Assembly (NCBI GenBank): GCA_029432795.1
Contig: JARNMJ010000005.1
Coordinates: forward strand, 62,001 to 126,000
Direction: 5' to 3'
DNA length: 64,000 nt
Source of the DNA: Pontiellaceae bacterium B12219
Lineage (GTDB): Bacteria > Verrucomicrobiota > Kiritimatiellia > Kiritimatiellales > Pontiellaceae
Of this stretch, positions 8,786 to 32,019 are shown piece by piece. How positions within the stretch are numbered: position 1 is the stretch's first letter; the number at the start of each line of letters is the position of its first letter. Made by a program: the position numbers and the translations under genes. Under the pieces are notes generated by a model. That model did not search any database, was not told where the DNA came from, and saw nothing but the letters and a program-made list of their open reading frames with translations.

Positions 8786-9727
8786 TCACTCAGGTGCCGG
8801 TTTTATCCGCTCGTCCCTCGGAGGCGTCAGCAATTTACCTGCAGGATCCATCTCACCCCCCCATGCGGGCGGCTCCCCCTGATTGCTGTCGGTGAAGGCT
8901 TCGGGGCGATAGGTGCCGCCCGCTTTCGGCCGGTCCACCACGTCGTGCGTTTTTGTGAAATGAATCCCGTCCGCTGCATACAGCACGCTGTTCGCGGTCT
9001 CTTTCACCCCGAGGCCGTCGGCCAGCGCGGCGACCCCCGTGCCCTGCGGCCAGACGACCACTTCATGATTGCCCGGAAAGTCCGGTTGTTCCGGATGGCG
9101 GATGTAAGGCCCGCCCGGCGACTCCGCAATCGCCAGCCCCATTCGCGTATAATGCGCGCTTTTGCCCAGCGGGCGCCCTTTGTAGTAAAGCCAGTATTTA
9201 CCGTCGCGGACGATCAGGCAGGAATCGTCGACCAGATGACTGTCGAAATCGTCCGGATTGTCGCTGTTTTTCAGGACCAGGCCGTCGGGCGAATCGGACA
9301 CCGCAATGCCGATTTTTGAATCCGGCTTCACCTTCGGTTTTTTCGAAATCGCGGTATAGAACAGCCAGTATTTTCCTTCGGCCACCAGGATGTTGGGGGT
9401 GAATACACTCGCCTCATCCCATGCGCCGGCTGCGCCTTTGGCAACCGCCTCGCCCTGTTCCGTCCAGTTTATTCCATCCGGCGAAGTCGCATACCAGACC
9501 GTTGCGTTATAGCCCGTCTTTACAGGGCCTCGCGAATACCAGACATAATAGAGATCCCCAACCTTGATGACGTCGCTCGGGTCGCGGCGCGAGACCACTT
9601 TATCCGGCCCGATCCCGGTCAAGGCGGTCCGCGAAAATGTGGCGGTGCCGTGGGATAGTTCATCGGCACGGGCGGTCAGGAGGCATGCCGGAAGCAGGAC
9701 CAGCAGAAGTGCTTTGTTCGGTTTCAT
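8786..9727 (-). CDS. GH117-like exo-hydrolase (3,6-anhydro-L-galactosidase-like), run B copy 2
   Basis: This is a 313-residue protein. The ATG at 9727 is supported by AAGGA upstream and starts the signal peptide (MKPNKALLLVLLPACLLTARA). The fold is a five-bladed propeller of the GH43/GH117 type: RRDPSDVIKVGDLYYVWYS, FTPNILVAEGKYWLFYT, DDFDSHLVDDSCLIVRDGKY and NHEVVVWPQGTGVAAL. These strings match what I recall of GH117 alpha-1,3-neoagarooligosaccharide hydrolases, which release 3,6-anhydro-L-galactose. The lengths are also right. A divergent GH43 is the alternative. A close paralogue lies at 19988. It follows the sulfatase stop by four bases and is the last gene of run B. Confidence 0.78.
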   Translation of the reverse strand: MKPNKALLLVLLPACLLTARADELSHGTATFSRTALTGIGPDKVVSRRDPSDVIKVGDLYYVWYSRGPVKTGYNATVWYATSPDGINWTEQGEAVAKGAAGAWDEASVFTPNILVAEGKYWLFYTAISKKPKVKPDSKIGIAVSDSPDGLVLKNSDNPDDFDSHLVDDSCLIVRDGKYWLYYKGRPLGKSAHYTRMGLAIAESPGGPYIRHPEQPDFPGNHEVVVWPQGTGVAALADGLGVKETANSVLYAADGIHFTKTHDVVDRPKAGGTYRPEAFTDSNQGEPPAWGGEMDPAGKLLTPPRDERIKPAPE

Positions 9728-9731
9728 CTTT

Positions 9732-12727: not shown

Positions 12728-12737
12728 CACAATCAAC

Positions 12738-14360
12738 TTATCTGCTTACCTGAATGGTGTACTTCTCCATCAAATACTGAACCATCGTCTTCAGCTCAGT
12801 ATCTGTCAGCGGACGCTCATAAATGAGGAAACGAGCCAGTTCTCCATGAAAAGATTCTTTGCCGGGATGGTTCACGGCATCGCGCTCCTGACCAATTGCC
12901 AGCTTTGAGGGATTGGCCTCCGGATTCACAGGAACCGGTTTGCGGGCCACGGGATCCGCGGAGTTGATAAACAGTTCAAGGTCGACCACGCCCTGTCCGG
13001 CACCCATCCGCCCCATTACCAAATAGTATCGATTTTCCTCCAGGGGGGATGGACCGGCTATCAGCGGATTGGTTTGTTCATCCCACAGCCCCTTCTTCTC
13101 CATCGGCAACCCATTTCGCGTCCCCATCCATACCCGGTTGTCATCCATCAGGTTCCCCCAGAACCCGTCATAGGGCGGTCCATTTCGCAGATTCCCAAAG
13201 AACGAATTTACATCCTTTTTTCCGACCTGCTGTTTATACACGCACATGACCGAAAACCACGTATAGCCCTGCCCGGTTACCAGATGATCAAAGGCATCTT
13301 CATCCCTATTGATCAGTTCCTGTTCTTCAAAGATTAACGTGCTGTTATTTCCTATCTCGGGAACCGTATTCTTCAGCCTCGGACGGCCTGATCCGGCAAC
13401 CTTACGCCCCGCATCCTGTTTAACAAAAACATCTGCCGCCCCGGATCCCTCTTGATTGTGCCAGGCCCGAACAAAATCCCCCTCTTCAGTCTCCACTCCG
13501 ACATTGGCATCCAGATCGAGCAGCAATCCTCCGCTCACCGGCGGTTCTGTCGAGAGCAATGCCTTCCCGTTTTCAACGTGCGCACCGATGCGTCCGCTCG
13601 TCCAGCGCACCGCCCCTTCAATCAGTTTTTCAAAATCCGGATTCGCATAGATTTCCTTCGTGTGTCCTAACGATGTGAAGAACGATCGCCCTCCATCATA
13701 TTCATGATACCAGACAAAAGGATGGTCCCCGCCCATCTTCTGATTCGGCTTTCCCTCGTAGGAACGTTCATCCAATGAAATCAGAACATTCACCTTCTCG
13801 CGGGGATTCCGATCAAAAACATGCCATTCATCGGTCACCAACCACTCTTCCGGCAAATGTTGCGTGGCAGGATGGGTACGGTCTTCCACCACCAGGCGTG
13901 CCTGCTGTACCCTGGGGTGCCGCACCTGCCGAGCTCCAATCAGGCCCTCATACCAACCCTGAAAGGTACCCCCTTCTTTCCAGAGTGCACCGGCCGTATG
14001 AATCCCCACAAACCCACCGCCCTGCTGCACATAGCGCTTTAAGGCCTCCTGATCCCCGGCCTTCATGACCGGCCCTTTGTTACCGCAATTGTTATTAAAT
14101 ACCACGGTGTCAAAAGTACTGAGGTCCACCTTAGCCAGATGGCCCGGTTCGTTCACACAGACCACTTCCCAATCATTCTTCCTCCCCAGTTTTTCAATTA
14201 ACGCTTTCGCGTTGGGCATGGATGCATGTTCGTAGCCATTATTACTCTGAAAGCTCAATACACGAAAAGGTTCCTGCGCCATCTCCTCCAGGGCTGCCAG
14301 CCCCCAAAAAGCGACAAGTCCTGAAAAACCAGCCTTAAAACCTCCGATCGGTTTTATCAT
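12738..14360 (-). CDS. ThuA-domain protein with C-terminal LamG-like domain
   Basis: This is a 540-residue protein. The N-terminus is a weak signal or membrane segment. A ThuA-like domain (about 32-260) shows VLSFQSNNGYEHASMP, VVFNNNCG, GGGFVGIHTAG and HPFVWYHEYDGGRSFFTSLGH, a class I amidotransferase-like fold without an evident full catalytic triad. A concanavalin/LamG-like jelly roll follows (about 278-535) and ends FLIYERPLTDTELKTMVQYL. ThuA was named for trehalose utilisation in rhizobia. In PVC bacteria such proteins often accompany secreted glycan-degrading genes, but no reaction is established here. The start directly abuts the upstream sulfatase stop (TAG-ATG), so it is part of run B. 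Confidence 0.82.
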   Translation of the reverse strand: MIKPIGGFKAGFSGLVAFWGLAALEEMAQEPFRVLSFQSNNGYEHASMPNAKALIEKLGRKNDWEVVCVNEPGHLAKVDLSTFDTVVFNNNCGNKGPVMKAGDQEALKRYVQQGGGFVGIHTAGALWKEGGTFQGWYEGLIGARQVRHPRVQQARLVVEDRTHPATQHLPEEWLVTDEWHVFDRNPREKVNVLISLDERSYEGKPNQKMGGDHPFVWYHEYDGGRSFFTSLGHTKEIYANPDFEKLIEGAVRWTSGRIGAHVENGKALLSTEPPVSGGLLLDLDANVGVETEEGDFVRAWHNQEGSGAADVFVKQDAGRKVAGSGRPRLKNTVPEIGNNSTLIFEEQELINRDEDAFDHLVTGQGYTWFSVMCVYKQQVGKKDVNSFFGNLRNGPPYDGFWGNLMDDNRVWMGTRNGLPMEKKGLWDEQTNPLIAGPSPLEENRYYLVMGRMGAGQGVVDLELFINSADPVARKPVPVNPEANPSKLAIGQERDAVNHPGKESFHGELARFLIYERPLTDTELKTMVQYLMEKYTIQVSR

Positions 14361-15758
14361 CTAGTTTTTCTCCTGGGGATTCACCAATCCATGCGGACGC
14401 TGATCGGATCCCACGACATGCAGCCCACCGATCTCTGCGCGGATCCGGTCCGCTTCCCGGGTCAGCGTTTCGACCGTTTCGGGATGCTGCGCGAACACGT
14501 TGTGTTTCTCGCCGGCGTCGGCATCCAGATCAAACAGCATCGGCTTCTTCAACGTCGTATAGATGCGCTGGCCGCTGTCCTTTTTGGCCCAATACGGCTG
14601 ATCTTCGGATGTTCGGGGAAAATGCAGCTTCCACCGCTCATTGCGCACGGCCTGCAGATTCAGTCCGTTGTAATAATAGAAATACGTGTGCGGGCTCTGC
14701 TGCGTCTTTCCGGTCAGCAGCGGCAGGATGTTTTTACCGTCGATCGTCCGGTCGTCCGGCAGCGCCGCCCCGGCCACAGCGCCAAACAGCGGCAGCAGGT
14801 CCAGGCTCGAAATCATAGCATCCGAAACCTGTCCTCCCGGAATCCGGCCCGGCCAGCGGAATATACCCGGAACGCGGTGACCGCCCTCCATCGTGACATA
14901 CTTGCCGCCGCTCAGCGGCTTCGCCGTGCCGTCGCGTGCCGGCCCGTTATCCGACAGGAAAACCACCAGCGTATTTTCGGCGATACCGGCCTCGTCCACG
15001 GCCGCCACTACCCGGCCGACGCTGTGATCGAGTTCCTGCACAAAATCGATGTACGTTCCCGCCCGACCTTTAACCCCGGATTTGCCCTTAAAGGTTTTGC
15101 TCGGCAGCAGCGGACCGTGGGCAATGTGGTGCGCAAAATAGATAAAGAACGGCTGCTTATGATCCTGTTTGATAAAATCAACAATCTCGTCGGTGTAAAG
15201 CTTCGTCACCTTTTCAAAGGGCACATCCTTTTCAACCACCTCGCGGTTCCGGTAGATCGTCCGTTCGTCGACCCGATCCTTCTGCGTGGCATAATTGCTG
15301 TAGAGCCCCAGATATTCATCAAATCCGGCGTCGAGCGGATGCGAACCCTCCACATGAAAACCGAGGTGCCATTTGCCCACCATCTTCGTGTGATAGCCGG
15401 CCGACTTCAGCAACTCGGCCATGGTCACCTCGTCCGGTGCAATCCCGTAGTCGGCGTATTTCGGGAACGGATGCCGCGAAATCGGATGGCCGCAGCGCAT
15501 CGGATAGCGGCCGGTCATCAGTGCGGCCCGCGAAGGACCGCACACGTTGGCCGCCACCAGGCAGTCGGTTGAACGCAAGCCCTGTTCGGCCAGGCGGTCA
15601 ATCGCCGGCGTTTTTACCGGCGCCCCGTAACAGCCCAGGTCCCCATACCCCAGGTCATCGGCAAAGATCAGAATAATATTCGGCTGAGCCTGTCCCCAGG
15701 CCGCAAGCCCGAACATCAGCCCCGCCGCAACCATCGCCATCCTTGTTTTTACAGTCAT
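14361..15758 (-). CDS. S1-type sulfatase
   Basis: This 465-residue protein has a signal peptide (about 1-24), FADDLGYGDLGCYG, formylglycine motif C-G-P-S-R with Cys73, GKWHLGFH, FLSDNGP and a GGKYVTMEGGHRVPG stretch typical of arylsulfatase A-like enzymes. The length is normal for the family. It lies between the ThuA-LamG gene, which it abuts, and a CxASR-type sulfatase 23 bases upstream. No iterated palindrome was found in this gene. Confidence 0.93.
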   Translation of the reverse strand: MTVKTRMAMVAAGLMFGLAAWGQAQPNIILIFADDLGYGDLGCYGAPVKTPAIDRLAEQGLRSTDCLVAANVCGPSRAALMTGRYPMRCGHPISRHPFPKYADYGIAPDEVTMAELLKSAGYHTKMVGKWHLGFHVEGSHPLDAGFDEYLGLYSNYATQKDRVDERTIYRNREVVEKDVPFEKVTKLYTDEIVDFIKQDHKQPFFIYFAHHIAHGPLLPSKTFKGKSGVKGRAGTYIDFVQELDHSVGRVVAAVDEAGIAENTLVVFLSDNGPARDGTAKPLSGGKYVTMEGGHRVPGIFRWPGRIPGGQVSDAMISSLDLLPLFGAVAGAALPDDRTIDGKNILPLLTGKTQQSPHTYFYYYNGLNLQAVRNERWKLHFPRTSEDQPYWAKKDSGQRIYTTLKKPMLFDLDADAGEKHNVFAQHPETVETLTREADRIRAEIGGLHVVGSDQRPHGLVNPQEKN

Positions 15759-15781
15759 GACATCCCCGCCGATCGGCTGAT

Positions 15782-17212
15782 CTACTTTTTATTTTTCTTA
15801 CCCTTCGATGCCTTCAGCAGGGGATCGTCCAGTTTTTTGCTCAATACCGTCAGCGCCTCGCGCATCTGTTTCAGCTTGGCGGCATACTCCGGATTCTTGG
15901 CCAGGTCGTTCATCTCATTCGGGTCTTTTTTCAGGTTGAAGAGCCGTTCGACGTCGGCGGTGGGATAGGAAATAAACTTCCAGTCGCCCCGGGTAATCAT
16001 CCGCTGGCGGTTCATGTAGGCCCCGTAGATTTCCGGATAGTGCTCATCCGCTTCGCCGCGCAGGAGCGGCAGCAGGCTTTTGAAATCAACTCCGTCCATT
16101 GGCGCGCCGGCCAGATCAAGCGAGGTGGCCATCGCATCCTGCAGGTAGATCGGCGCATCGATCTTGATGCCCGGTTTTACATCCGGCCCGACCACCAGGA
16201 ACGGCACGCGCACACTGTGGTCATACATATTCTGTTTGCCGGACAGCCCGTGATGCCCCACGGCCAGCCCGTGGTCGGCCGTGAACACAATATAGGTATT
16301 GTCCGCTTTGCCCGATTTTTCCAGCGCCTGGAAAATCCGGCCGATCTGGTCATCCATGTGGGTGATCAGCGCAAAGTATTCCTGACGATGGACCTTCACG
16401 GCATATTCCGTGCGGGGGTACGGCATCAGCTTTTCATCGCGCAGTTTCAGGCCGCAGATCTTATCGGCATACGGATATTGCGGCAGGAAGTTTTCCGGCA
16501 GCTGAATGCGGTCGAGCGGATAGCGGTCGATATATTCCTTCGGCGACTGGCGCGGGTCATGCGAGGCATTGAACGCCAGATACATGAAGAACGGTTTATC
16601 GTCCTGCGCCGCGGTTTCCAGATAGCCGACCGCGTCGTCGGCGAGCACTTCGCTCCAGTGGGTGCCGCCCTCCCAGAATCCGCCATACTTGGTCTCCCAG
16701 GGTTTCCAGCCGTTTTCATAATCCTCCGGACTTTTCGGGCGGTTGTATCCCTCGGGCGTCTGCTTCGGCATACCGCCGCGAATATTTTTCGAGACATTAA
16801 AAAGGTCCGCCGCATCCGCGCCCGGCACATGCCACTTGCCGGTCATATACGTCTGATAGCCTGCATTCTGCATACGCTGCGACCACATGCGCTGCGTTTT
16901 CACACCGGCTTTGACCCCGTCCTGGGCCTGCCAGACAAACCGGCCGGAGTTGAGCATCGATCGGCTGGCCGCACAGACCGCCCCGCCCCAGGCGCCCATG
17001 TTATAGGCATGTGTAAAGCTGGCCCCGTTTTCAACCAGCTTGTCGAGGTTCGGCGTATCGATGTCGAGCATACCGGCGGCGCCGATGGTCTCGTAGCTCA
17101 TGTCGTCCGCAAAAATAAATATCACGTTCGGCGGCTGCCCTTCCGCAGCCGCCTGCAGACCAACGGCAATCAGAGCTGCCGCGGCAATCATTCGATACAT
17201 TCTGTTCATCAT
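15782..17212 (-). CDS. S1-type sulfatase, C-A-A-S-R subtype
   Basis: This 476-residue protein has a signal peptide (1-23), [14 protein letters not shown], formylglycine motif C-A-A-S-R with Cys80 preceded by NMGAWGG, TGKWHV, and [22 protein letters not shown], a form seen in iduronate-2-sulfatase-like enzymes. The tail KASKGKKNKK is very basic. The start overlaps the upstream sulfatase stop (ATGA). It is closely related to the sulfatase at 55889; the two share motif spacing and most loop sequences. A full iterated palindrome lies at 16317 in F-Q-A-L-E codons. The Pro-to-Ala change in the motif is a known variant and does not imply inactivity. Confidence 0.92.
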   Translation of the reverse strand: MMNRMYRMIAAAALIAVGLQAAAEGQPPNVIFIFADDMSYETIGAAGMLDIDTPNLDKLVENGASFTHAYNMGAWGGAVCAASRSMLNSGRFVWQAQDGVKAGVKTQRMWSQRMQNAGYQTYMTGKWHVPGADAADLFNVSKNIRGGMPKQTPEGYNRPKSPEDYENGWKPWETKYGGFWEGGTHWSEVLADDAVGYLETAAQDDKPFFMYLAFNASHDPRQSPKEYIDRYPLDRIQLPENFLPQYPYADKICGLKLRDEKLMPYPRTEYAVKVHRQEYFALITHMDDQIGRIFQALEKSGKADNTYIVFTADHGLAVGHHGLSGKQNMYDHSVRVPFLVVGPDVKPGIKIDAPIYLQDAMATSLDLAGAPMDGVDFKSLLPLLRGEADEHYPEIYGAYMNRQRMITRGDWKFISYPTADVERLFNLKKDPNEMNDLAKNPEYAAKLKQMREALTVLSKKLDDPLLKASKGKKNKK

Positions 17213-18633
17213 TCGGTTTCTCTCGTTGTTAAGGGTTTAGCGTCGGCAATGAATCCGGCCGGCCGGCTGTTTTCGGCCAGCTCTTCTTTATAGGATTCCG
17301 CGTAAGAACGAAGACGTTCCACAACCTCGGGATGGGACGCCAGCACATTGTTTTGCTCCCCCGGATCCGCATCCAGATCGTACAGGGCCATGATCGGCGA
17401 GCTGGAGCCTTTGCCCCGGCGGGCGGGCGCGTTCCCTTCCGCCTTGCCGAAATGCAGCTTCCATTTACCGGACCGAACGGCTTTGAGCTGATTCCCTCTA
17501 AAATAGAAAAAGGCCTCGTGCGGCGTGGTTTTATTTTCCACCAGCACCGGAAGGATGTCCCGGCCGTCGATCACGCGGTCGACCGGGATTTCAGCCCCGG
17601 CGAGTTTTCCAAAGGTTGGAAACAGATCCATCGTGGTCATCAGTTCATCGATGGTCTGACCGGCCGGAATGCGGCCGGGCCAGCGGATGATGCCCGGCAC
17701 GCGCATGCCGCCTTCATAGGAGCTGCCCTTCCCTCCGGTCAGCGGTGCCGTTTTCCCGACGGACGGGCCGTTATCGGATGTGAACACCACCACCGTATTT
17801 TCATCGAGCCCGTTGGCTTTCAGCGCGTCGAGAATCTGACCGACCGACCAGTCAATTTCGCTGATGGCATACTTGTAGATTTTATCGCGGGTTGAATAAT
17901 CAATGCGCTCTTCATCCTTCAGCTTCTCCCGGATTTCATCGGGTACGTTTTCCATAAACGGCGGCGACATGTGAATCGGTCGATGTGGAATCGGGTGCGG
18001 GATGTAGAGAAAAAACGGCTCGTCTTTGTGTTGCCCGATAAACGCCACGGCCCGCTCGGTAATGCGCTTCGTCAAATAGTCCGCATCGGGCTCTTCCTCG
18101 ACAACGGTTTCCATTTCCATAAGCGGAAGCGGCGGAAAATGATGTTTTGGATTCGTGTGAAACGGATGAATATCGTGGCTGTAGGGCAAACCGAAAAATT
18201 CATCGAAACCCTGGCGGGTCGGCAGGAATTCCGGCTGATCGCCCAGATGCCACTTGCCGAAGATACCGGTGGCGTAACCGGCCGATTTCAGCAGTTCGGC
18301 CAGGGTGATTTCTTCCGGATTCAGTCCGTTTTGATCGCCGGCCAGGAAGACGCCGGCGGCCAGGCCGATGCGCTTCGGGTAGGAGCCGGTCATCAATGCT
18401 GAGCGGGACGGCGTGCAGACGGACCCCGTCACATAAAAGCTCGTCAGCTTTGCGCCCTCCTCCGCCATCCGGTCGATGCGCGGCGTGTTGACATGGTCTC
18501 CGCCGAAACAGCCCAGATCAGCATAGCCCTGGTCGTCGGTCAAAATAATGATCACGTTGGGCGGCCCAGCAACGACCGTGGCCGAATATAAACAGGCCCC
18601 CACGAACAACCCGACAAGATTTCCTTTATTCAA
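17209..18633 (-). CDS. S1-type sulfatase with a TTG start
   Basis: This is a 474-residue protein. No ATG precedes the signal peptide (NKGNLVGLFVGACLYSATVVA); the codon at the right place is TTG with GGAGA 7 bases upstream, so a TTG start is called. It has LTDDQGYADLGCFGG, C-T-P-S-R with Cys73, GKWHLGDQ, FTSDNGPS and a GGKGSSYEGGMRVPG loop. The stop overlaps the next sulfatase start. A full iterated palindrome lies at 17605 in P-T-F-G-K codons. A dispersed inverted repeat lies between this gene and the DUF6786-like gene upstream. Confidence 0.9.
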   Translation of the reverse strand: MNKGNLVGLFVGACLYSATVVAGPPNVIIILTDDQGYADLGCFGGDHVNTPRIDRMAEEGAKLTSFYVTGSVCTPSRSALMTGSYPKRIGLAAGVFLAGDQNGLNPEEITLAELLKSAGYATGIFGKWHLGDQPEFLPTRQGFDEFFGLPYSHDIHPFHTNPKHHFPPLPLMEMETVVEEEPDADYLTKRITERAVAFIGQHKDEPFFLYIPHPIPHRPIHMSPPFMENVPDEIREKLKDEERIDYSTRDKIYKYAISEIDWSVGQILDALKANGLDENTVVVFTSDNGPSVGKTAPLTGGKGSSYEGGMRVPGIIRWPGRIPAGQTIDELMTTMDLFPTFGKLAGAEIPVDRVIDGRDILPVLVENKTTPHEAFFYFRGNQLKAVRSGKWKLHFGKAEGNAPARRGKGSSSPIMALYDLDADPGEQNNVLASHPEVVERLRSYAESYKEELAENSRPAGFIADAKPLTTRETE

Positions 18634-18662
18634 ACTTATATCTCCTAAACCAGCAGAGACTA

Positions 18663-18730
18663 TTTTGACAGGATTACAGGATAATGGGATCGTTCTTTAT
18701 CCGGTTCATCCTGTTATTCCGTCTAAAAAA
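18663..18730. repeat. Imperfect inverted repeat built on CAGGAT units
   Basis: The left arm TTTTGACAGGATTACAGGAT pairs imperfectly with the right arm (ATCCGGTTCATCCTGTTATT then CCGTCTAAAA), with CGTTCTTT as loop. It fills most of the gap upstream of the TTG-start sulfatase. CAGGAT repeats of this kind are, as I recall, widespread between genes in PVC-type genomes. It may act as a hairpin terminator for the DUF6786-like gene; mobility is not shown. Confidence 0.6.
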
Positions 18731-18735
18731 TAGAG

Positions 18736-19986
18736 TTATTGAAAAGCCGTCTTGATGACGTCCAGTTTGGCACCGAGCAGTTTGCGGGCAATCGGATCGA
18801 GCTCTTCTTCCGAACCCTGGATATGGAAGGTGCGCTGCACATGTGTCATCGTTTCGCCGGGCTTGAGGGCGGCGGCGGGCGAGGACGTTTCCAGCTCATA
18901 GAACGGACCCAGCGGCGCAACGCCGGGCTCGGGAGAACCGTCGTTGTAAGAGTTGATCACGTCGCCGGCATAGGGTTCTTCCTGCAGCTCCCACATAGAG
19001 TTCACGAAACCGTTCGGCGCTTCCTGCACGTTGTAGGTGACAATGTTGAGCACCTGCCCGGCGGCATCGTAGCTGCCGGCAATGCCCTTCGAGCGCTGCG
19101 GACTGATCCCGATCTTACCGCGCCGCGTTCCGTCGCCCTTGAAAAAGAGCTTCTGCTTCTGAACGATCAGGTAGTCCTCGGGAATCGCACCGAAGTAGGT
19201 GTCGTTCACTCTGGGGCCGAGTGCCTTATCTCCGCCTTTGTTAAAGGGAATGACGACAGTGGTTTCGGGCGACGGGTTATACATGCCGAGCATCCAGATG
19301 GAGAGCAGCCCGGTTTCCGGTTTCCAGGCATTGGAACCGGTGTTGGTGATCCGGTTGTCGGTTTCATAACCCACCATGCGCAGGCCTTCGCCGAGTTCAA
19401 CACCCAGCAGTTCGGAGGCTTCCGCTTTATCCAGCAGCTTCACCGTGCGCTCAATACCCACTTTGAATTCTGTTCCACTGTAATTAACCAACTCGGCATC
19501 ATGAGTAAACGTGGCGGAACTGTTATCTTCCGAAAACATTTTAAACCCCTCGGTATCGATTACCGGCGGCGTTGTCCAATCGGAAAATTCAAACTTGGTT
19601 CCCGGCTTGAAAAAGAGTGCATACTGGCCGCCTTCCGGACCCAGCCAGAACCGTTCCTCGCCCCCGAAAATATAGATATGCTCTTCGAGTTTTCCTTTTT
19701 TCTCATCGTCGGGAAGAAGGCCCGCTTCGATTACGGGTCGGTTAATCCAGCCGAAACTGGGGCCCGCCTTGCGATCAAAGGTGCTGGTCATCACCCTGCC
19801 CTGATATTCCGGTGCCACCGCAACCGCCGCATCTCCAGACCTCAACAGCACAATGGATGTGTGCTGCTTCATGAAGTCCACATCATCTGAAAATGCACCG
19901 CATTCCACCGTGTTCGTCGTTGCGTATCCGGGAACCAAATACAACGTTGCGATTCCCACTCCTATTGCTGTTTTCATATTCATCAT
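18736..19986 (-). CDS. DUF6786-like secreted protein
   Basis: This 416-residue protein has a signal peptide (about 1-22). The mature part reads as a beta-rich, mutarotase-like fold: VAVAPEYQGRVMTSTF, GPSFGWINRPVIEAG, HIYIFGGEERFWLGPEGG, and a second half with TNTGSNAW and FFKGDGTRRGKIGISPQRSKG. I associate this pattern with the DUF6786 family, which has no established function; the assignment is from memory. One base separates its start from the GH117-like stop, so the two are co-transcribed. A role in handling a released sugar is inference from that coupling only. Confidence 0.7.
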   Translation of the reverse strand: MMNMKTAIGVGIATLYLVPGYATTNTVECGAFSDDVDFMKQHTSIVLLRSGDAAVAVAPEYQGRVMTSTFDRKAGPSFGWINRPVIEAGLLPDDEKKGKLEEHIYIFGGEERFWLGPEGGQYALFFKPGTKFEFSDWTTPPVIDTEGFKMFSEDNSSATFTHDAELVNYSGTEFKVGIERTVKLLDKAEASELLGVELGEGLRMVGYETDNRITNTGSNAWKPETGLLSIWMLGMYNPSPETTVVIPFNKGGDKALGPRVNDTYFGAIPEDYLIVQKQKLFFKGDGTRRGKIGISPQRSKGIAGSYDAAGQVLNIVTYNVQEAPNGFVNSMWELQEEPYAGDVINSYNDGSPEPGVAPLGPFYELETSSPAAALKPGETMTHVQRTFHIQGSEEELDPIARKLLGAKLDVIKTAFQ

Positions 19987-19987
19987 C

Positions 19988-20968
19988 TTAGTTCCCTTCC
20001 TTTAAGGTTACGTCAAACCGCTGGATAAACGGCAGGTTTCCCTTCCCTTTCGGCCGTCCTATCTCAACACCCCACTCCGGAATATCGCCGGTACCGCTCT
20101 GCGTAAATGCCTCAGGGCGATACGCACCGCCGGCCCACGGGCCGCTTTTCACTGTTCCGATTTTTGAAAAATTGACACCATCTTCGGCATAGAGGATTGA
20201 GTTGATGATCTGTTTGGGGCCGGTGGTGCCGATCATGGCGGCCACGCCTTCGCCCTGCGGCCAAATGAGCACTTCATGATTTCCGGGAATCACCGGATTT
20301 TGCGGATGCCGTACATAGGGCCCTCCGGGTTTATCGGCGATGACCAGGCCCATCTGGGTTTCCCCGGGGCTTTTACCGAGCTGGCGGCCTTTGTAGTAAA
20401 ACCAGTATTTTCCGTCCCGGACGAGCAGGCAGGCATCGTCAACGAGATGGCTGTCAAAATCATCGGGGTTGTCACTGTTTTTCAGTGCCGGGTTGGAGTC
20501 AAGCCGCTCCCAGGGCCCGTCCGGCGAATCCGACACCGCGATGCCGATTTTGGAATCCGGATTAAAAGGTTTTTTATAGGGCCTGGAAGTTCCCGTATAG
20601 AACAGCCAGTATTTTCCTTCTGCGACCAGAACATTGGGAGTAAACACACTGCCCGCCTCCCACGTGCCCGGTTCGCCTTTGGCCAGCGCCATGCCCTGCT
20701 CTTTCCAGTTGAAACCGTCGGGCGAGGTGGCGTACCAGACGGTCGCATCGTAGCCCGGAGAGATGGACCCTTTTGAATACCAGACATAGTAGAGGTCATT
20801 GACTTTGATCACATCGCTCGGATCACGGCGCATGATACCCGGTTCCTCTCCAATGCCTTGCAGCTCGGAATGCTTCACTTCCACCGTTTTCGTCTGCGAT
20901 TGCGCCGTAGCAGCTCCGCACAAACAGCCAAGCATTCCCATCAATACACTCCAACCAAGTTTACGCAT
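19988..20968 (-). CDS. GH117-like exo-hydrolase, run B copy 1
   Basis: This is a 326-residue protein. The ATG at 20968 follows AAGGAG by five bases and starts the signal peptide (MRKLGWSVLMGMLGCLCGAATA). Conserved strings include RRDPSDVIKVNDLYYVWYS, ATVWYATSPDGFNWKEQG, FTPNVLVAEGKYWLFYTG, NPDDFDSHLVDDACLLVRDG and NHEVLIWPQGEGVAAM. They are shared with the 8786 paralogue and with GH117 as I recall it. A five-bladed propeller releasing 3,6-anhydro-L-galactose from neoagaro-type ends is the best guess. A 20-bp TGTG/CACA palindrome lies 57 bp upstream of the start, so this gene probably has its own regulated promoter within run B. Confidence 0.8.
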   Translation of the reverse strand: MRKLGWSVLMGMLGCLCGAATAQSQTKTVEVKHSELQGIGEEPGIMRRDPSDVIKVNDLYYVWYSKGSISPGYDATVWYATSPDGFNWKEQGMALAKGEPGTWEAGSVFTPNVLVAEGKYWLFYTGTSRPYKKPFNPDSKIGIAVSDSPDGPWERLDSNPALKNSDNPDDFDSHLVDDACLLVRDGKYWFYYKGRQLGKSPGETQMGLVIADKPGGPYVRHPQNPVIPGNHEVLIWPQGEGVAAMIGTTGPKQIINSILYAEDGVNFSKIGTVKSGPWAGGAYRPEAFTQSGTGDIPEWGVEIGRPKGKGNLPFIQRFDVTLKEGN

Positions 20969-21243
20969 GTTTCTCCTTCTCCAACTCAAGCCGGTAAACG
21001 TACGGTATTTCAGGGAGAATGTAATGTGACGTAATCGCGCCACAGACCAAATGGAAGATCTAAACAAACTCGATAATGCACCGTGGAATGTTCCGATTCG
21101 CTTTCAGGTAAAACTTTTTATCCTGGAAAAGGAAATGTCAGCCCGCAGAGCAACCATTTAAGTTTAGTATTCATCGCTGCTCCACGTGCTTTTTTTGTAT
21201 CCTGCGCCTCTTGTTTTCAATCCAGAAACCACCGTTCATATAT
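20969..21243. other. 275-bp intergenic region before GH117-like gene
   Basis: It holds the palindrome at 21025-21044, the Shine-Dalgarno site for 20968, and otherwise AT-rich sequence near 21110 and 21190. I see no gene or strong terminator for the upstream GH43-CBM6 gene. Confidence 0.5.
21025..21044. promoter_or_regulatory. Candidate operator, TGTGACG palindrome copy 1
   Basis: The sequence is TGTGACGTAATCGCGCCACA, a 20-bp imperfect palindrome with outer arms TGTG(A/G)CG and CG(C/T)CACA. It differs at two positions from the copy at 25953. It is 57 bp upstream of the GH117-like start at 20968. The dyad form suggests a dimeric transcription factor; which one is unknown. Confidence 0.65.
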
Positions 21244-22671
21244 CTACTTTTTCTTTATTCGTTTTGCCTTCTTTGGAGCCCATTCAAACCAGTTCAGGTT
21301 CATCAGGTCTCCGGAACCGCCGGAAAAACAAAGGTAGATGGTGCGAAATCCGGCAACGCCGCTCACCATTGTCGAACATGTTTCGAATTGATCCAAACCA
21401 CCGGTTGCCGAAACGGGAATCGTACCGATAACCTTCCCGTTCAGGTGGTCCAGCCGCAGTTCAATGGTTCCGCCCGCCTTGGAAGCCGCAACCCGTACGC
21501 GGAAAGGTATCAGCGTATTTGGATTGCTGCCGAAATAAATCTTCTCATAACACGACCAATCGCCGTTTGAAATATTCCCGAGTCCTGTACTTTTCCCGCC
21601 ATCCTTCTGGACAGCAATCTTCACTCCCGATTCTTCTGAGAAATCTTCCGCCTGATGACGCAGGCTGCCCTTTGGAGGCGGCGGTTCATTCGGCTCTACC
21701 GATCCCTTTTCTGACGATTTCACCTTCTTTGAAGACGAAAGTTCCACCCCTTCATCCAAGGTGTAGATGACGGGCTCAATGGTTCCATCCTCATGAAATG
21801 TCATTTTATCGAAGCAGGCGGAGCGTCTGCAACTGTTGCCATGGTTCACATCCCCGCGATGATAAAAGAGATACCACTCCCCGTTAAACTCAATGGCTGA
21901 GGTGTGATTAGGGGACGCCGGTGAATTGGGTGCAAGTTCTCCTTTAAAATCTGCATACTGAGGCAAAGGAGAATCGGCCATCCAATATTGCGTAACTTTT
22001 CCAACCCGCGCACTGAAGTAGTAAATCCCGTTGCGTTTAAAGACATGAACCGCTTCATTCACCTCTTCTGAGCTCAGGCGAATCCAGGGACCATCCAGCT
22101 CAACCATATTATCCTTCAGCCTGGCCCCCATGATATGCCGGCCCGGATCACCGATATCTTCCCAGTGATCATTCCCGTAAATATAGGCCTGACCGTCATC
22201 ATCAACGAATACAGTGGGATCAAAAATTTTCGTAAACTCATTGCTGACCGCCGATTCCCACGGTCCCACCGGAGTCCTGCTTTTTGCCACGCCAACCTCG
22301 GTGATATCGCTTGGAAAATACCAGTAGTACCAGCCGTCCTTATAAGCCGCATCCGGCGCATTCATATTCGAATGCGCATATTCAAACCCCGGCGCGAGCT
22401 GAGGATCCAGCACCACACCGTGGTTAATCCATGTCTTCAGGTCCGACGATTCAAGCACCACATAGTCCTTCATCGATTCATAGTTCGATGCATCCGGCTG
22501 GTCGTGCGAACAATACACATAAACCTTGCCGTCAAAAACCTCTGCCGCAGGATCACACGCATACACAAACCCAGGATCCGTTTCCCTTAAAATAGGATTT
22601 CCTGCGAATACGGGACCTGCAACCAACAGCCCCGCCACCCCTAAAACGACCTTCATTCTTTTCATTTTCAT
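21244..22671 (-). CDS. GH43-like glycosidase with C-terminal CBM6
   Basis: This 475-residue protein has a signal peptide (about 1-24) and a GH43 five-bladed propeller (about 25-310). The likely base Asp is in ACDPAAEVFDG, the pKa modulator in NMNAPDAAYKDG, and the acid Glu in NEAVHVFKRNG. A Ser/Lys/Pro-rich linker (about 318-345) leads to a CBM6 domain (about 348-465) that starts RHQAEDFSEESGV and shows GNISNGDWSCY. The tail KKAKRIKKK is basic. GH43 enzymes are mostly arabinosidases, xylosidases or galactosidases; the specificity here is unknown. The start at 22671 is the first of several nearby ATGs. It lies 24 bases after the next GH43. Confidence 0.88.
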   Translation of the reverse strand: MKMKRMKVVLGVAGLLVAGPVFAGNPILRETDPGFVYACDPAAEVFDGKVYVYCSHDQPDASNYESMKDYVVLESSDLKTWINHGVVLDPQLAPGFEYAHSNMNAPDAAYKDGWYYWYFPSDITEVGVAKSRTPVGPWESAVSNEFTKIFDPTVFVDDDGQAYIYGNDHWEDIGDPGRHIMGARLKDNMVELDGPWIRLSSEEVNEAVHVFKRNGIYYFSARVGKVTQYWMADSPLPQYADFKGELAPNSPASPNHTSAIEFNGEWYLFYHRGDVNHGNSCRRSACFDKMTFHEDGTIEPVIYTLDEGVELSSSKKVKSSEKGSVEPNEPPPPKGSLRHQAEDFSEESGVKIAVQKDGGKSTGLGNISNGDWSCYEKIYFGSNPNTLIPFRVRVAASKAGGTIELRLDHLNGKVIGTIPVSATGGLDQFETCSTMVSGVAGFRTIYLCFSGGSGDLMNLNWFEWAPKKAKRIKKK

Positions 22672-22695
22672 TACTCGGCTTATTCAAATAAATAT

Positions 22696-23616
22696 TTACG
22701 GGAGGACACTTGGCGACTGTTGAACCATTTTGATGGTTCCGTCGTCATTAAAGAAGAGTTCATCGAAGCAAATAGAACGATTGGTCGATTTTCCGCCGGA
22801 GAGATCCGCATTGTGATAAAACAGGTACCACTGGCCTTTGTATTTTACCACAGAACCATGCGTAGTCAGGGCACTCGTTTTTTCCAGAATAATGCCTTTG
22901 CTCTCCCAGGGGCCTAACGGAGAGCCGCTCATGGCATAACGCATCTGATGGCCGCCTTTTGTATTATCCGGATAGATCAGGTAATAGATCCCGTCCCGCT
23001 TAAACACAAACGGTCCTTCTCGGTGGTCGTAGAGTTCGGACTGCAATACCATCTCCCCGTCAATCTCCATCATATTGTCTTTGAGCTTGGCTGCATACGT
23101 TTTTTTACTGACCACGCCATACAGGTAAGCCTGACCGTCATCATCAATGAACACGCAGGGATCACAAAAGGTCGTCCCGCCTTTCACCTTCCCCTGCACC
23201 TTGAAATCAGCCGCCGGATTTTTGCTGGTTGCGACGCCCACTTCCCATTCTTTATTTGTGTTGGTATGGGGAAAATAGAAATAGTAGAGCCCATCTTTAT
23301 AGACACAGTCCGGAGCCCACATGGCCCCCGGTCCTCCGCTCCACTCCACATCGCGCGAATGAAGAATCTCTCCGTGATCCGTCCACGTGATCATGTCATC
23401 GGTGGAAAAGACATGATAACCATCCATGGCTCTGTATCCTTTTCCTTTGATATCGGTTGAAGGATAGACATACAGGCGGCCATCCGCCCAAACGCGGGCC
23501 GTCGGGTCAGCAGTGAACATGTGCTTGACGAACGGGTTGGAGGCCCGTTCCGCGGCGTACAGTACAGCGACTGTTGAAAGGCTCAAAACGACCATCAGTT
23601 GTTTTATTTTTTGCAT
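22696..23616 (-). CDS. GH43-like glycosidase
   Basis: This 306-residue protein has a signal peptide (1-21) starting at an ATG with AAAGGAG upstream. It is a single-domain GH43 propeller: base Asp in TADPTARVWADGRLYVYPS, APDCVYKDGLYYFYF, FCDPCVFIDDDGQAYLYG, and acid Glu in HREGPFVFKRDGIYYLIYP. It ends at the last propeller strand without a CBM. Its C-terminal NRSICFDELFFNDDGTI matches CRRSACFDKMTFHEDGTI in the downstream GH43, so the pair arose from a common ancestor. The substrate is unknown. It sits between the toroid lyase-like gene (93-bp gap) and GH43-CBM6. Confidence 0.9.
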   Translation of the reverse strand: MQKIKQLMVVLSLSTVAVLYAAERASNPFVKHMFTADPTARVWADGRLYVYPSTDIKGKGYRAMDGYHVFSTDDMITWTDHGEILHSRDVEWSGGPGAMWAPDCVYKDGLYYFYFPHTNTNKEWEVGVATSKNPAADFKVQGKVKGGTTFCDPCVFIDDDGQAYLYGVVSKKTYAAKLKDNMMEIDGEMVLQSELYDHREGPFVFKRDGIYYLIYPDNTKGGHQMRYAMSGSPLGPWESKGIILEKTSALTTHGSVVKYKGQWYLFYHNADLSGGKSTNRSICFDELFFNDDGTIKMVQQSPSVLP

Positions 23617-23709
23617 AGTACTCCTTTGTATTTTTCCATATCCGAATACCGAAAAGGCTACCTAAGCAGACTTGTAAAAAAGCAGGCACCATTAAACAGC
23701 AGCTCTTCA

Positions 23710-25794
23710 TCATCGGCCCTGTCTTATTTTTTTTCTATAACGTGTCCAAGCCGATATGCCAACAAAAATGACAGCCATAACGCCGACTCCGACCAGCAGG
23801 AAGAATTTTTGATTTAAAGACTCTTCAGCATCCACGACAACGATTTCAGGCACAAACCGCTTTTCCGCAACGTCTGAAACAGGATTCGTCACGGCCACTT
23901 CCGACTGAACAACAACGGATTCTTCAACGGCCTGTGCGTTATCTATTCTCAGCTGATCCAGAATATAGGCCGCATCCTTGCCCTGCACCGAAACGTTCAT
24001 CTGCTGAACACCCTGCTGCAGCGAAACGCCCCGGGCAACCGTATAGGTTTCCCAGCTCTGTTCCGGCGTCACCGGCAAGGTGACAGCCCCCGTTGCGGTC
24101 TTCTCCTGAAAATTGAAACAAATCTGACCCTCTTCGCGCGCCATATAGCGAACACTCAGGTCATAGTTTCCAACCTTTGGAACATACACGGTATAGGTCA
24201 GCCACTCGCCGTCCATCAGTTCTGTGAGCGCATGTCCGCCATCCGACAGTTTGACAATGTCCACGTCGTCATTCCGGTAGGCCTTGCTCCGGTTGCCCTC
24301 CGTGCTGTCATGGTACGTCCGGCCGTTTCCAGACATCGGAAACCAGTCATAGTTTTCCGCCTCAATCGTGGCCGGCAATACGTGCATTCCGAATACGGAC
24401 ACGCCGTTTTCAAAGCCGCTGACCGGATCGCCCGCGCAACCCGGCGGACGATGAAATGTCAGACCGCCCCAACCGGGATGGTCCGTGTTCCAGCCGTTGC
24501 CTTCAATGCCGACCAGATCCAGAGAACGCTTCGTCCAGACGGCCTGATCGCCCTGCCCCATGCGGACGTTGAAATGAGCCCACGCCTGCTCATAAATGGG
24601 GCGATGTTCCGTAAATGCGCCGCGGCTTACCCGATTGGTGTTCGCATCAAAATAGGGATTGATTGCTTTCGACAGCCAACGTCCGGTCCGATCCTTACGT
24701 TCGATAAATTCACCCGACTCCACCGTCGGCTCCCACGGCGTCGGCTGATCTGGATAGGACTGAATGAACGAGGTGTTATAGCGCGCCGAAAATTCGAAGG
24801 CTTTGAGCAATCGGTTATCCAGATCATTCCAGGCCGGATCGCCCTGGTTCCAGGCCACCTCCGCCATCATCTGAAAAATGCTTAAGCCGAAATAGGAATG
24901 CTGCTGGTCGCGCGAGCTTTCCTGACACTGGCCGTTTTCCCAGAAATAATTCGCCAGCGTTCCGTTGTATCCCCAATCTTCCTGACGGGACTCCCGCTCG
25001 TGTTTGTAGATAGTGTGGTAGGGATTATCGCTGATGACACTCGTCGATTTCGAAGGCCCGGCCGCATAGGGCAGATCATCCGGCCGATGCGGCAAACCTT
25101 TATAATAGCGCAGTGCCCGATCGAACATGATTTCGTTGTCGAGAAACACCGCCATGGAAATCATCGCACGAAAGGCAATGGCATCCTGGTTGCCGTGACG
25201 GTCCGGATCGCCATTAAGAATGTTCCAGTAAAAGGTTTTATCACCTTCCGGAATTTCCGTGGTGGAATACCCCGGATATACCAGCATCGCTTTGAACTTC
25301 TCAATATCCTCCGGGTCCCACCCGTCGTAAGTGCTTTTGATGATTTCCGCACCTTCGATCATTTTCCAGGGACGGTTCCCCGAGTTCAGCGCAAACCCGC
25401 TGGTGCGCGTCAGGTTCTGCCAGGCATTGAAAATTTCCACACACGTTGCAGCGTGGCGCTCATCGCCCGTGATGTACCACATCAGCGCATTCAGGTAGGC
25501 GGCGGTTGAATCCGAAACAAAGGCCCCTTTGTTGGCATCTGTACTCGTCATCGAGAGATCGCCCAGTACCTTATAGTCGTAGCGGGCCTTCGGATATTCC
25601 TGCAGTTTTTTAAACGTTGACCAATAGGGTTCCGCCTTTGTTTCCACCATATACTTCATCCGGTCGAGATCGGACTTTTTATGCAGGCAGCCCGGATGCA
25701 CAAATGTGCGCTCGGCAAACAAAGGGGTCATTGCCGCGAACAATACGATCAGTATCCCAGAAAACTTACAATTCGGACTTTTATTTCCTCTCAT
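23710..25794 (-). CDS. Toroid polysaccharide lyase-like protein with CBM6 and C-terminal membrane helix
   Basis: This is a 694-residue protein. The ATG at 25794 is chosen because AAGGAG lies 8 bases upstream. It has a signal peptide (about 1-28) and an alpha-helical domain of the alginate-lyase superfamily type (about 30-465), with NRPWKMIEGAEIIKSTYDG, GDPDRHGNQDAIAFRAM and HRPIYEQAWAHFNVRMGQGD. A CBM6 domain follows at about 475-610 (PATIEAENYDWFPMSG, LMDGEWLTYTVYVPKVGNY). The C-terminus has a Val/Glu-rich stalk, one membrane helix (about 660-682) and the basic tail RYRKKIRQGR. The last part predicts anchoring to a membrane with the enzyme outside the cytoplasm. The lyase family and substrate are not assigned. 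It is the first gene of run B. Confidence 0.8.
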   Translation of the reverse strand: MRGNKSPNCKFSGILIVLFAAMTPLFAERTFVHPGCLHKKSDLDRMKYMVETKAEPYWSTFKKLQEYPKARYDYKVLGDLSMTSTDANKGAFVSDSTAAYLNALMWYITGDERHAATCVEIFNAWQNLTRTSGFALNSGNRPWKMIEGAEIIKSTYDGWDPEDIEKFKAMLVYPGYSTTEIPEGDKTFYWNILNGDPDRHGNQDAIAFRAMISMAVFLDNEIMFDRALRYYKGLPHRPDDLPYAAGPSKSTSVISDNPYHTIYKHERESRQEDWGYNGTLANYFWENGQCQESSRDQQHSYFGLSIFQMMAEVAWNQGDPAWNDLDNRLLKAFEFSARYNTSFIQSYPDQPTPWEPTVESGEFIERKDRTGRWLSKAINPYFDANTNRVSRGAFTEHRPIYEQAWAHFNVRMGQGDQAVWTKRSLDLVGIEGNGWNTDHPGWGGLTFHRPPGCAGDPVSGFENGVSVFGMHVLPATIEAENYDWFPMSGNGRTYHDSTEGNRSKAYRNDDVDIVKLSDGGHALTELMDGEWLTYTVYVPKVGNYDLSVRYMAREEGQICFNFQEKTATGAVTLPVTPEQSWETYTVARGVSLQQGVQQMNVSVQGKDAAYILDQLRIDNAQAVEESVVVQSEVAVTNPVSDVAEKRFVPEIVVVDAEESLNQKFFLLVGVGVMAVIFVGISAWTRYRKKIRQGR

Positions 25795-26068
25795 TCCGGG
25801 CACTCCTTCAACTTCATTCTTCGCTAACGACCCGTCTAAATTATGAAAATCCTGAATCAGGCCTTTCCTTTAAATTTAAAGTACAGTGAATCCGATTTGC
25901 GCGGTGCACGGCAACACGGCGAAACAGAATACCACACGATGAAATTCTGTCATGTGACGCATTCGCGCCACACGGCAAAATCTCAGAGAATTGCTCGCAC
26001 CGACCTCCATCAGGAAACGAAACCGAAATAAGTTGCACATCGGGACGCGACCGCCTAAACAAAACACC
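25795..26068. promoter_or_regulatory. Divergent promoter region, run B / kinase 2
   Basis: This is a 274-bp gap. It contains the TGTG palindrome (25953), an AT-rich palindrome TTTAAATTTAAA near 25869, and the CCTGAATCAGG dyad near 25851. The last two lie nearest the lyase-like gene and could be part of its promoter. No exact -35/-10 pair is claimed. Confidence 0.55.
25953..25972. promoter_or_regulatory. Candidate operator, TGTGACG palindrome copy 2
   Basis: The sequence is TGTGACGCATTCGCGCCACA, with arms TGTGRCGC and GCGYCACA around four bases. It lies in the divergent region between run B (start 25794) and kinase 2 (start 26069), 97 bp upstream of the kinase and 158 bp upstream of the lyase-like gene. 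Confidence 0.7.
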
Positions 26069-28120
26069 ATGCGTCCTCTTGCTATAAACATTGCAGTTTG
26101 TCTGTTGGCCCCCCTCTGCCTCGCCGGTGCCCGATCTCCATCCTCAGGCGGGGAATCAGAGAAAGCTCCCTCGCTGTCGCAACTCGAAGAGCGGCTGTCC
26201 GCGCTCGATGCTGAGCTCGGGCGGCTCGCCCGGTTTACGACCCGCCGCGGAGCCGGAAGTATTGGATGGAGCTCCCGACAATGGAAAACGCCCGATCATC
26301 CCGAATGGGCGGAGATTCAACTCCCTCGGAACGCAACCATTGATGAGATTGTTCTGGTTCCCGTCCTTTGGGATTACGCGGACAAAGGCCCTCAGGCCTC
26401 CGGCTTTCCCGTGGCGTTTGAAATACGTGCAGGAATGAAAGGCGACTCGACCGGAAACGTGATTGCCCGATTCGGTCCCGAAGACCGCCTCCTGCCGCGC
26501 GTGGCACCGCTGGTGATCCCCCTTCCGCCGACGAGCTTATCATGGGTACGGATTCAATCAACGCAGATGTCAACAACCGGCCTGATTGAACAATACACCT
26601 TCGGCTTTTCTGAAATCATGCTGTTCAGCGGCGGACACAATGTTGCAAGGCACCAGCCTGTCCGCGCTTCATCCGAGCCCCTGAACTGGGGCGGTGAGGC
26701 CATCTCGCCCAAAGCACTTACCGACGGATCCACCCCCTTTCTGATGGATTCGTCTCAGGGCAAAAAATCCCGCACCTACCTGGGCCGCTTCTCTTCGGAC
26801 ACACCGTTTTCATTCATCATCGATCTCGAAGAAAGCTACCCCGTGGACGAAATCCGCTACCACAGCGCCGCCGATGTCAGGCAGCACATCCCGCTCCCCA
26901 AAGAGGTTGACTATGGACTTCCCAGACACCTTATCGTGGAAGGTGCCAACCGGGCCGATTTTTCCGATGCCATTCCCTTACTGAACTATCAACTCCATAC
27001 AATTTATGACGCCGGGCCAATCCTGGTACGCAGTGTCCCCGGAACCCGTTGCCGCTATATCCGCCTCTCCATACCCGATCCCTACACGGTTCCCGCCAAC
27101 ATTAATGGACGGCGGTATGTTAATCTGTCGGAACTGGAAATCATTTCCAACGATCGGAATGTCGCCTTGGGAAAAACGGTTGTTTTCCCAAAAACAAATA
27201 TCCAGCACCTATCCAAAACATCCATTACGGACGGGAGCAATAATTTTGGAACGCTCCTGCCCATCCGGAACTGGATGGAGCAGCTGGCCCGCCGCCACGA
27301 TCTGGAACGGGAGCGCCCGCTCCTCGTTGCAGAACTCAACACCCGCTACGCCCGCCAGCAACGAAATCTTTTACTCATGTACTGGAGCGCCGGCATCCTG
27401 GCCGCTTCCACCGTTCTGACCATCCTCATCGGCCGCATCCTCCGCATGCGGCATGTGGTTGAAATTAAACAACGTTTTGCCGCCGATCTGCACGATGAAC
27501 TCGGAGCCAACCTCCACTCCATCGGACTGATCAGCGATGTGGCACAAAATGCCGACTCCAGCGAGCAGTGGCAGATGCTCAGCCGGCGGATTCGGGAACT
27601 GACCGAGCGCTCCGGAACTGCCGTGCGACACTGCACCAATCTACTTGAAGCCGACGACCTATATATCGGCCTGACCTCGGATATGCAACGGGCTGCCCAC
27701 CGCATCACAACCAATCTGGAGCACGATTTTGTCATCGAGGGCAAACCGTTTCTCGACCGGCTTCAGCCGCGTACCCGTATTGATCTCTTCCTGTTTTATA
27801 AAGAAGCTTTGGTCAACATCTGCCGGCACTCCGGCGCCTCCAAAATAAGCACCCGTCTGATCGGCGGATCCAAGGAAACGATTCTAACCGTCTGTGACAA
27901 CGGGAAAGGCCTTCAGGGTCACGTACCGACCTCACTCAAGCGCCGTGCCCGTCTGCTTCGAGCCAAACTCATCGTTGAATCCCCTGAAACGGGAGGAACG
28001 GTAATTACTCTAAAGCTGCGCCCCCGGCGGGGACTGCGCTTCAGTCAAAAGTCAAAAAGTCCAACATCAAAAATCTCCAATACGAATCAAGCGACCGGCC
28101 AAAATACATTTGACCTTTGA
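26069..28120 (+). CDS. Sensor histidine kinase with periplasmic discoidin-like sensor (pair 2)
   Basis: This is a 683-residue kinase. The ATG at 26069 starts the signal peptide (MRPLAINIAVCLLAPLCLAGA); the frame is open upstream but lacks a leader. The layout matches kinase 1: a Leu/Glu coiled segment, discoidin-like folds (about 60-405, with HNVARHQPVRASS), a membrane helix (about 433-455), phospho-acceptor His475 in DLHDELGANLHSIG, and the ATP box DNGKGLQG. It again lacks a recognisable second Gly-rich box. The last 25 residues, rich in Ser/Lys/Asn/Thr, are encoded by degenerate heptameric repeats and have no match in kinase 1. It is divergent from run B and 29 bp before its regulator. Confidence 0.88.
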   Translation: MRPLAINIAVCLLAPLCLAGARSPSSGGESEKAPSLSQLEERLSALDAELGRLARFTTRRGAGSIGWSSRQWKTPDHPEWAEIQLPRNATIDEIVLVPVLWDYADKGPQASGFPVAFEIRAGMKGDSTGNVIARFGPEDRLLPRVAPLVIPLPPTSLSWVRIQSTQMSTTGLIEQYTFGFSEIMLFSGGHNVARHQPVRASSEPLNWGGEAISPKALTDGSTPFLMDSSQGKKSRTYLGRFSSDTPFSFIIDLEESYPVDEIRYHSAADVRQHIPLPKEVDYGLPRHLIVEGANRADFSDAIPLLNYQLHTIYDAGPILVRSVPGTRCRYIRLSIPDPYTVPANINGRRYVNLSELEIISNDRNVALGKTVVFPKTNIQHLSKTSITDGSNNFGTLLPIRNWMEQLARRHDLERERPLLVAELNTRYARQQRNLLLMYWSAGILAASTVLTILIGRILRMRHVVEIKQRFAADLHDELGANLHSIGLISDVAQNADSSEQWQMLSRRIRELTERSGTAVRHCTNLLEADDLYIGLTSDMQRAAHRITTNLEHDFVIEGKPFLDRLQPRTRIDLFLFYKEALVNICRHSGASKISTRLIGGSKETILTVCDNGKGLQGHVPTSLKRRARLLRAKLIVESPETGGTVITLKLRPRRGLRFSQKSKSPTSKISNTNQATGQNTFDL

Positions 28121-28149: not shown

Positions 28150-28815
28150 ATGAAAAATAAAATCAACATTATGCTGATCGAAGACCACCCCGAATATCGC
28201 GAAAGCATTGAGCTCGTTTTAAGCACAACAGAGGATCTCCTACTTGCCCGCCAGTTCGGTACGGCCGATCAGGCTCTCCACGTTCTGGAGCAGAAACCTC
28301 CGGTCGAGGTGCCGGACATCATACTGTTGGACCTTAACCTGCCGGGGCTGAGCGGCATTGATGCCCTGCCCCTGTTAAAAAAGCATTCCCCGCAGACTCC
28401 GATTATTGTCCTTACCCAGTCCGATCACGAAGCGGATGTACTCGCAGCCATCAGCGCCGGCGCCTCCGGTTATCTGCTGAAGGCCTCAACCGGCAGCGAA
28501 CTCATCGGCGGGATCCGAACCGTTTTGAATGGCGGTGCCCCGATCGATCCGAAGATGGCCCGCTACATGGTGGACTTCCTATCTGACAAACCACAGCACA
28601 CCGAAAAGGACTGCACGCTTTCAGAACGGGAACTCAGCGTTCTGACCCTGCAGGGCGAAGGACTCGTTAAAAAGGAGATCGCAGAGCGACTCGATATCAG
28701 CACCCACACCGTGGACAACTATATGCGGCGAATCTATGAAAAACTTCAAGTACCCAATGCCCCCGCCGCCATCGCCAAAGCGTTCAGAAGCGGACTCTTT
28801 CCCCGCAATAGTTGA
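28150..28815 (+). CDS. NarL/LuxR-family response regulator (pair 2)
   Basis: This is a 221-residue regulator. The ATG at 28150 follows AAGGA by six bases. The receiver domain has E11/D12, phospho-acceptor Asp61 in ILLDLNLPGLSG and YLLKAS. The LuxR helix-turn-helix has LSERELSVLTLQGEGL and ISTHTVDNYMRRIYEKL. It is paralogous to the regulator at 8096, but the recognition-helix region differs (STHTVDNYMRR versus GVGTVKTHIRH), so the two may bind different sites. It is convergent with the GH2 gene at 28855 (39-bp gap). Confidence 0.92.
   Translation: MKNKINIMLIEDHPEYRESIELVLSTTEDLLLARQFGTADQALHVLEQKPPVEVPDIILLDLNLPGLSGIDALPLLKKHSPQTPIIVLTQSDHEADVLAAISAGASGYLLKASTGSELIGGIRTVLNGGAPIDPKMARYMVDFLSDKPQHTEKDCTLSERELSVLTLQGEGLVKKEIAERLDISTHTVDNYMRRIYEKLQVPNAPAAIAKAFRSGLFPRNS

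Positions 28816-28854: not shown

Positions 28855-32019
<3,165 letters not shown>

Follow-up and report, generated by a model that had tools for sequence, protein, structure and literature searches.

NarL recognizes inverted repeats of TACYYMT heptamers in a 7-2-7 arrangement. The LuxR lux box and the TraR box, inverted repeats of 20 and 18 bp, respectively, are read by GerE-type helix-turn-helix (HTH) domains and often abut the −35 element, and the CRP site, TGTGA-N6-TCACA, has 8 bases from TGTG to CACA. In polysaccharide utilization loci of Bacteroidota, HTCS regulators are single hybrid proteins with an AraC-type HTH. For sulfatase-rich PVC bacteria, the choice among many polysaccharide gene clusters is a largely unknown matter. 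At promoters controlled by DevR/DosR of Mycobacterium tuberculosis, the promoter-proximal binding site overlaps the −35 element (PMC3029386). In one Pontiella study, the kinase and regulator genes were remarked on only as nearby genes (PMC10880615), and our literature search, which had partial coverage, found no earlier description of an operator/regulator system such as the one analysed here.

This system comprises two copies of a 20-bp palindrome, within a 64,000-nucleotide stretch of DNA (the window), and the proposed binder, the response regulator RR2, with its partner kinase HK2. Like DevR/DosR with its Dev boxes, RR2 is a NarL-family response regulator and the sites overlap a −35-like box, but the operator sequence is another one, each promoter carries one site whereas DevR typically uses at least two cooperating boxes, and the targets are polysaccharide enzymes. 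RR2 shares its regulator family and the inverted repeat with NarL; neither site contains a TACYYMT heptamer, the unit here being 20 bp with TGTG..CACA ends. Unlike LuxR and TraR, RR2 has a phosphoreceiver and no acyl-homoserine-lactone domain, which sets the sites apart from a quorum-sensing lux box. HK2/RR2 resembles HTCS in outline, with a dedicated sensor adjoining each polysaccharide gene cluster, yet it is a split kinase and NarL-type regulator.

Results

The two 20-mers, TGTGACGTAATCGCGCCACA at positions 21025-21044 and TGTGACGCATTCGCGCCACA at 25953-25972, are present in the window exactly as an earlier note on this DNA had claimed. They differ at 2 of 20 positions (18/20 identical), and 7 of the 10 arm pairs are complementary in each copy. 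With up to three mismatches allowed, they are the only matches in the whole window, against a mean of 0.02 in shuffles. Their ends are like those of CRP/FNR sites, but TGTG and CACA are 12 bases apart, which bears out the non-CRP spacing given in the note. Copy 1, on the minus strand and reading TGTGGCGCGATTACGTCACA in the GH117 direction, lies 57 bp 5' of the ATG of a GH117 gene. Copy 2, likewise on the minus strand and reading TGTGGCGCGAATGCGTCACA in the lyase direction, lies in the divergent gap between an alginate-lyase-like gene (minus strand, start 25794) and HK2 (plus strand, start 26069), about 97-116 bp upstream of the HK2 ATG. The context described earlier holds for both copies, which we propose as RR2 operators.

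RR2 (28150-28815, plus strand) is a NarL/LuxR-type response regulator with a receiver and a GerE HTH (Response_reg, 3.5e-23; GerE, 7.5e-16; helix ISTHTVDNYMRRIYEKL), and among solved structures it matches NarL (1a04, 1.6e-27) and DevR (3c3w, 1.3e-20). Its partner HK2 (26069-28120, plus strand) is a sensor histidine kinase with HisKA_3 and a weak F5/8 type C (discoidin-like) match. As expected of a NarL/FixJ-type operator, the 25953 site adjoins a kinase/regulator pair whose regulator is of the receiver-GerE kind. On the minus strand, the alginate-lyase-like gene with CBM6 (23710-25794) heads the first target operon, which probably includes two GH43-type genes 3' of it (22696-23616 and 21244-22671, together spanning 21244-23616). 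The second target operon is headed by the GH117 gene (19988-20968, minus strand), whose assignment as anhydro-alpha-L-galactosidase-like is confirmed by sequence match to the solved anhydro-alpha-L-galactosidases 4ak5 and 3p2n. The closely spaced genes that follow at 8786-19986 on the same strand, namely DUF6786, sulfatases, ThuA, further sulfatases and a second GH117, probably form one long operon with it.

The contig carries three GH117-type genes (8786-9778 and 19988-20968 in the window, and C229:46184-47125), all of them within sulfatase-rich runs, and the other two are 63-67% identical to the 19988 copy. The source organism is a seaweed-degrading marine bacterium, a Pontiella species.

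The whole genome of the organism (4.75 Mb) was scanned with the pattern TGTGRCGNNNNCGCGCCACA at up to two mismatches, with the reversed pattern as control, a scan that the earlier note had suggested. A third real copy, TGTGGCGTAATCGCGTCACA, is located at C229:25192, 58 kb from the first site and 50 bp before a GH116-related gene outside the window. Past these three copies there is no excess in this genome (11 two-mismatch matches, against 10 with the pattern reversed). The three copies lie in intergenic DNA, each upstream of a gene; many copies outside promoters, which the note had regarded as speaking against its proposal, were looked for across this genome and none such were seen. The motif is a three-site rather than a two-site regulon in its own genome.

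Beyond this genome, the motif (consensus TGTGGCGCGATCGCGCCACA) occurs in three other Pontiella genomes, G020 (8 copies), G003 (3) and G021 (1). A scan of 310 genomes of the class Kiritimatiellae with an extended pattern returned 15 copies, all in these four genomes; two further genomes hold one one-mismatch match each, of different sequence, and the reversed control pattern gave two matches altogether. The site upstream of the GH116-like gene is found in three species, whose proteins are 76-81% identical, and that of the GH117-DUF6786 operon in two. The remaining targets in G020 and G003 are mostly PEP-CTERM-like surface proteins adjoining the same enzyme set. Taken together, these comparisons of sequence suggest that the palindrome is a real, conserved operator.

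In all 15 copies from the four species, a TKACA box (TGACA or TTACA) directly abuts the gene side of the palindrome, and in most of them a −10-like element follows 15-17 bp beyond this box. Specifically, copy 2 shares one base with the −35-like ATGACA (25948-25953, minus strand), and alignment places a probable −10-like TATTCT of the lyase operon at 25926-25931 (minus strand), 16 bp from the −35 box. Copy 1 shares one base with ATTACA (21020-21025, minus strand), and a weak candidate −10-like element of the GH117 operon, TACGTT, lies at 20997-21002 (minus strand). Because every copy is oriented to the gene start and abuts a −35-like box, the geometry is that of an activator; an inverted repeat near the −35 element at an activator position, as in NarL/FixJ-type operators, is seen at 15/15 copies. 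Judged by the orientation of the −35 boxes, the two window copies point at the lyase operon and the GH117 operon. The palindrome had been said to link kinase 2, the lyase and GH117; this link is clearer for the two enzyme operons than for the kinase.

HK2 and RR2 belong to a paralogous family, with about 15 HK2 relatives and 18 RR2 relatives in the same genome. A motif-independent search for palindromes near the kinase/regulator (HK/RR) pairs recovered the TGTG set together with a larger set, YATCC..GGATR. The sites of the latter lie beside HK genes, with a −35 element resembling GRCAAA and a −10 element resembling GGTAWATT adjoining them, a layout equal to that of the TGTG set with an offset of one base. 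A YRYS..SRYR 20-mer stands within 300 bp 5' of the HK gene in 43 of 94 HK/RR pairs drawn from PVC genomes, versus 8 in shuffles; scoring only the best palindrome upstream of HK is weakly above shuffles, and the signal becomes clear with the YRYS..SRYR ends. A scan for perfect palindromes overlooked most of the real sites, because real sites are imperfect. The palindromes of the paralogs lie mostly at −62 to −146 from the HK start, a range that includes the copy near RR2 (−116), which also falls within the broader family position of a 20-bp palindrome roughly 60-250 bp 5' of the HK start. About half of the paralogs have no recognisable site. Orthologous HK/RR pairs across species share the same palindrome: that of RR1, CATCCACCGTTTGGTAGATG, at 6049-6068 in the window, 61 bp before HK1 (6129), recurs without a single change at the corresponding locus of G021 (C204:98826) and is probably the RR1 operator. 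Additionally, across Pontiella and additional PVC genomes (L111-L162 and further kinase loci), paralog pairs have regulator-specific 20-bp palindromes 5' of the kinase gene, most of them YATCC..GGATR.

In an alignment to NarL, RR2 has the recognition helix TVDNYMRR, which is of the Y..R type. Helices of the [YF]..R type (third variable residue Y or F, last one R) pair with TG..CA palindromes, e.g. TGTCATCCGTTCGGATGACA, TGCCCCTCTTTTGAGGGACA and TGTCTACCAATCAGTAGACA, and H..H regulators pair with YA..TR palindromes; RR2, which combines Y..R with TGTG..CACA, follows this correspondence of helix class and outer bases. TG palindromes accompany 8/18 [YF]..R regulators versus 1/66 H..[HN] regulators (Fisher p=8e-6), and 6/6 versus 1/30 (p=3.6e-6) when RR2 is excluded and only loci with a site are counted, figures inflated by shared ancestry among the loci; strict dereplication leaves 3/3 versus 1/12 (p=0.009). 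Loci fetched later added one more F..R regulator, with the palindrome TGTCCCTCATTGGAGGGACA. In RR2, L281 and L287, whose second variable residue is Asn, base 4 of the palindrome is G, where other sites mostly have C; this link was spotted post hoc with n=3, and two more Asn-type regulators have no clear site.

Discussion

We propose that the palindromes are probably RR2 operators, at which a phosphorylated RR2 dimer would activate the lyase/GH43, GH117/sulfatase and GH116-like targets. RR1 and RR2 are the only DNA-binding regulators recognised on the 131-kb contig, and RR2 is favoured because RR1 has its own, different palindrome. It is also favoured because the 25953 site lies within the range of paralog palindromes upstream of HK genes, because its Y..R helix fits the TG..CA class, and because the succession of palindrome, −35 and −10 equals that of the paralog sites. 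The earlier suggestion of either RR2 or a separate dimeric factor is thereby narrowed in favour of RR2 by contig, position, helix and layout, and the separate factor keeps the smaller share. In the proposed mechanism, HK2 presumably senses an extracytoplasmic breakdown product of red-algal galactan and would phosphorylate RR2, whose dimer would sit on the 20-bp inverted repeat and place a recognition helix in each of its halves. Since the operator runs into the −35 box, bound RR2 would touch RNA polymerase in the manner of a class-II-type activator. The polymerase would then be recruited to the lyase/GH43 operon (from 25953), the GH117/sulfatase operon (from 21025) and the GH116-like gene (from the third site), activating them.

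A separate factor is kept as a rival because two sister species hold the motif without an RR2 ortholog. Orthologs of RR2 are found only in its own genome and in G020, and G003 and G021 have well-conserved copies without one; there, the motif would be bound by related regulators of shared specificity or by a different factor. G021 encodes a cousin, RR_b, with the helix AIDKRMRR, partly similar to that of RR2, and G003 retains only a truncated regulator relic with the helix HTVDQFTRR. RR_b itself, found only in G020 and G021, is preceded by a related element, TAGGGCGCGATTGCGTACCT, and its specificity may in part be the same. Shared specificity is weakly favoured because a decayed RR_b-like HTH fragment (L093, G020 C124:64705-64869) lies about 0.5 kb from the motif copy at C124:65356. 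In G020, HK2/RR2 stands behind another HK/RR pair, and no motif copy lies directly 5' of HK2. The conserved copies in G003 and G021, and the coherent gene set formed by the targets in all species, would fit a palindrome that serves a different dimeric regulator, one with its gene elsewhere and common to the four species, which would co-control the polysaccharide genes; the proximity of RR2 would then be coincidental. We consider this unlikely, though it is the most serious of the alternatives: the palindrome/−35/−10 layout equals that of the RR paralog sites, the helix-type correlation suits RR2, and our genome-wide regulator scan, which covered the GerE and LacI families, found no LacI-type gene on C229, on G020 C124, on C184 or near the G003 sites. 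A LacI-type operator was itself rejected, since the centre is A/T rather than CpG and no LacI gene is linked on C229, G020 C124 or C184. RR3, present in G020, G003 and G021, was likewise set aside as a common binder; its gene has its own conserved upstream element, TATCGCCGGAAAAGGGTATA, and RR3 was not found in the genome of the window. Regulators with the helix pattern HxVDxxxRRI were confirmed in the four motif-bearing genomes only, a result that weighs little because these genomes are among the largest.

That RR2 binds these sites but represses, or autoregulates HK2/RR2, rather than activating the enzyme operons seems very improbable: copy 2 does lie between divergent promoters, 97 bp from the kinase ATG, but all copies face an enzyme or surface-protein gene and end at the upstream edge of its −35 box. 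Least credible is a chance likeness of two functionless palindromic stretches. The window alone offers just two copies, yet 0.02 are expected per window, and such a reading is already contradicted by 15 oriented copies upstream of orthologous genes in four species.

The palindrome and RR2, the reading we prefer, could be a further case of the NarL-type regulator/operator class, and the family-wide relation of helix and operator could be the surprising part. It is conceivable, though we would not quite count on it, that the split two-component systems of polysaccharide-degrading Pontiella and other PVC bacteria, an expanded family with one member per gene cluster, follow a code in which helix residues set the outer bases of the 20-bp operator (Y/F..R giving TG, H..H giving YA and Asn giving G at base 4). 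If so, operators and target regulons would be predictable from the regulator sequence alone. The present work proposes a regulator together with operators and targets for it, and under the suggested rule many unassigned clusters would become testable regulons.

Several further loci deserve mention. The RR3 element TATCGCCGGAAAAGGGTATA, or a near variant, occurs in three species (L090 12064-13230, L192 near 29600-30400 and the start of L103, in record coordinates). In G020, L094 (C124:80943-86963) holds two kinase/regulator pairs in tandem; inserted between HK2 and RR2 is a gene whose 126-aa product is presumably similar to four-helix rRNA intervening sequence proteins. G003 has two broken response regulators, L180 (C1:2094995-2095411) and L161 (C1:2118763-2121246); one is without most of its receiver, and the other is apparently split, with the HTH part 2 kb off.
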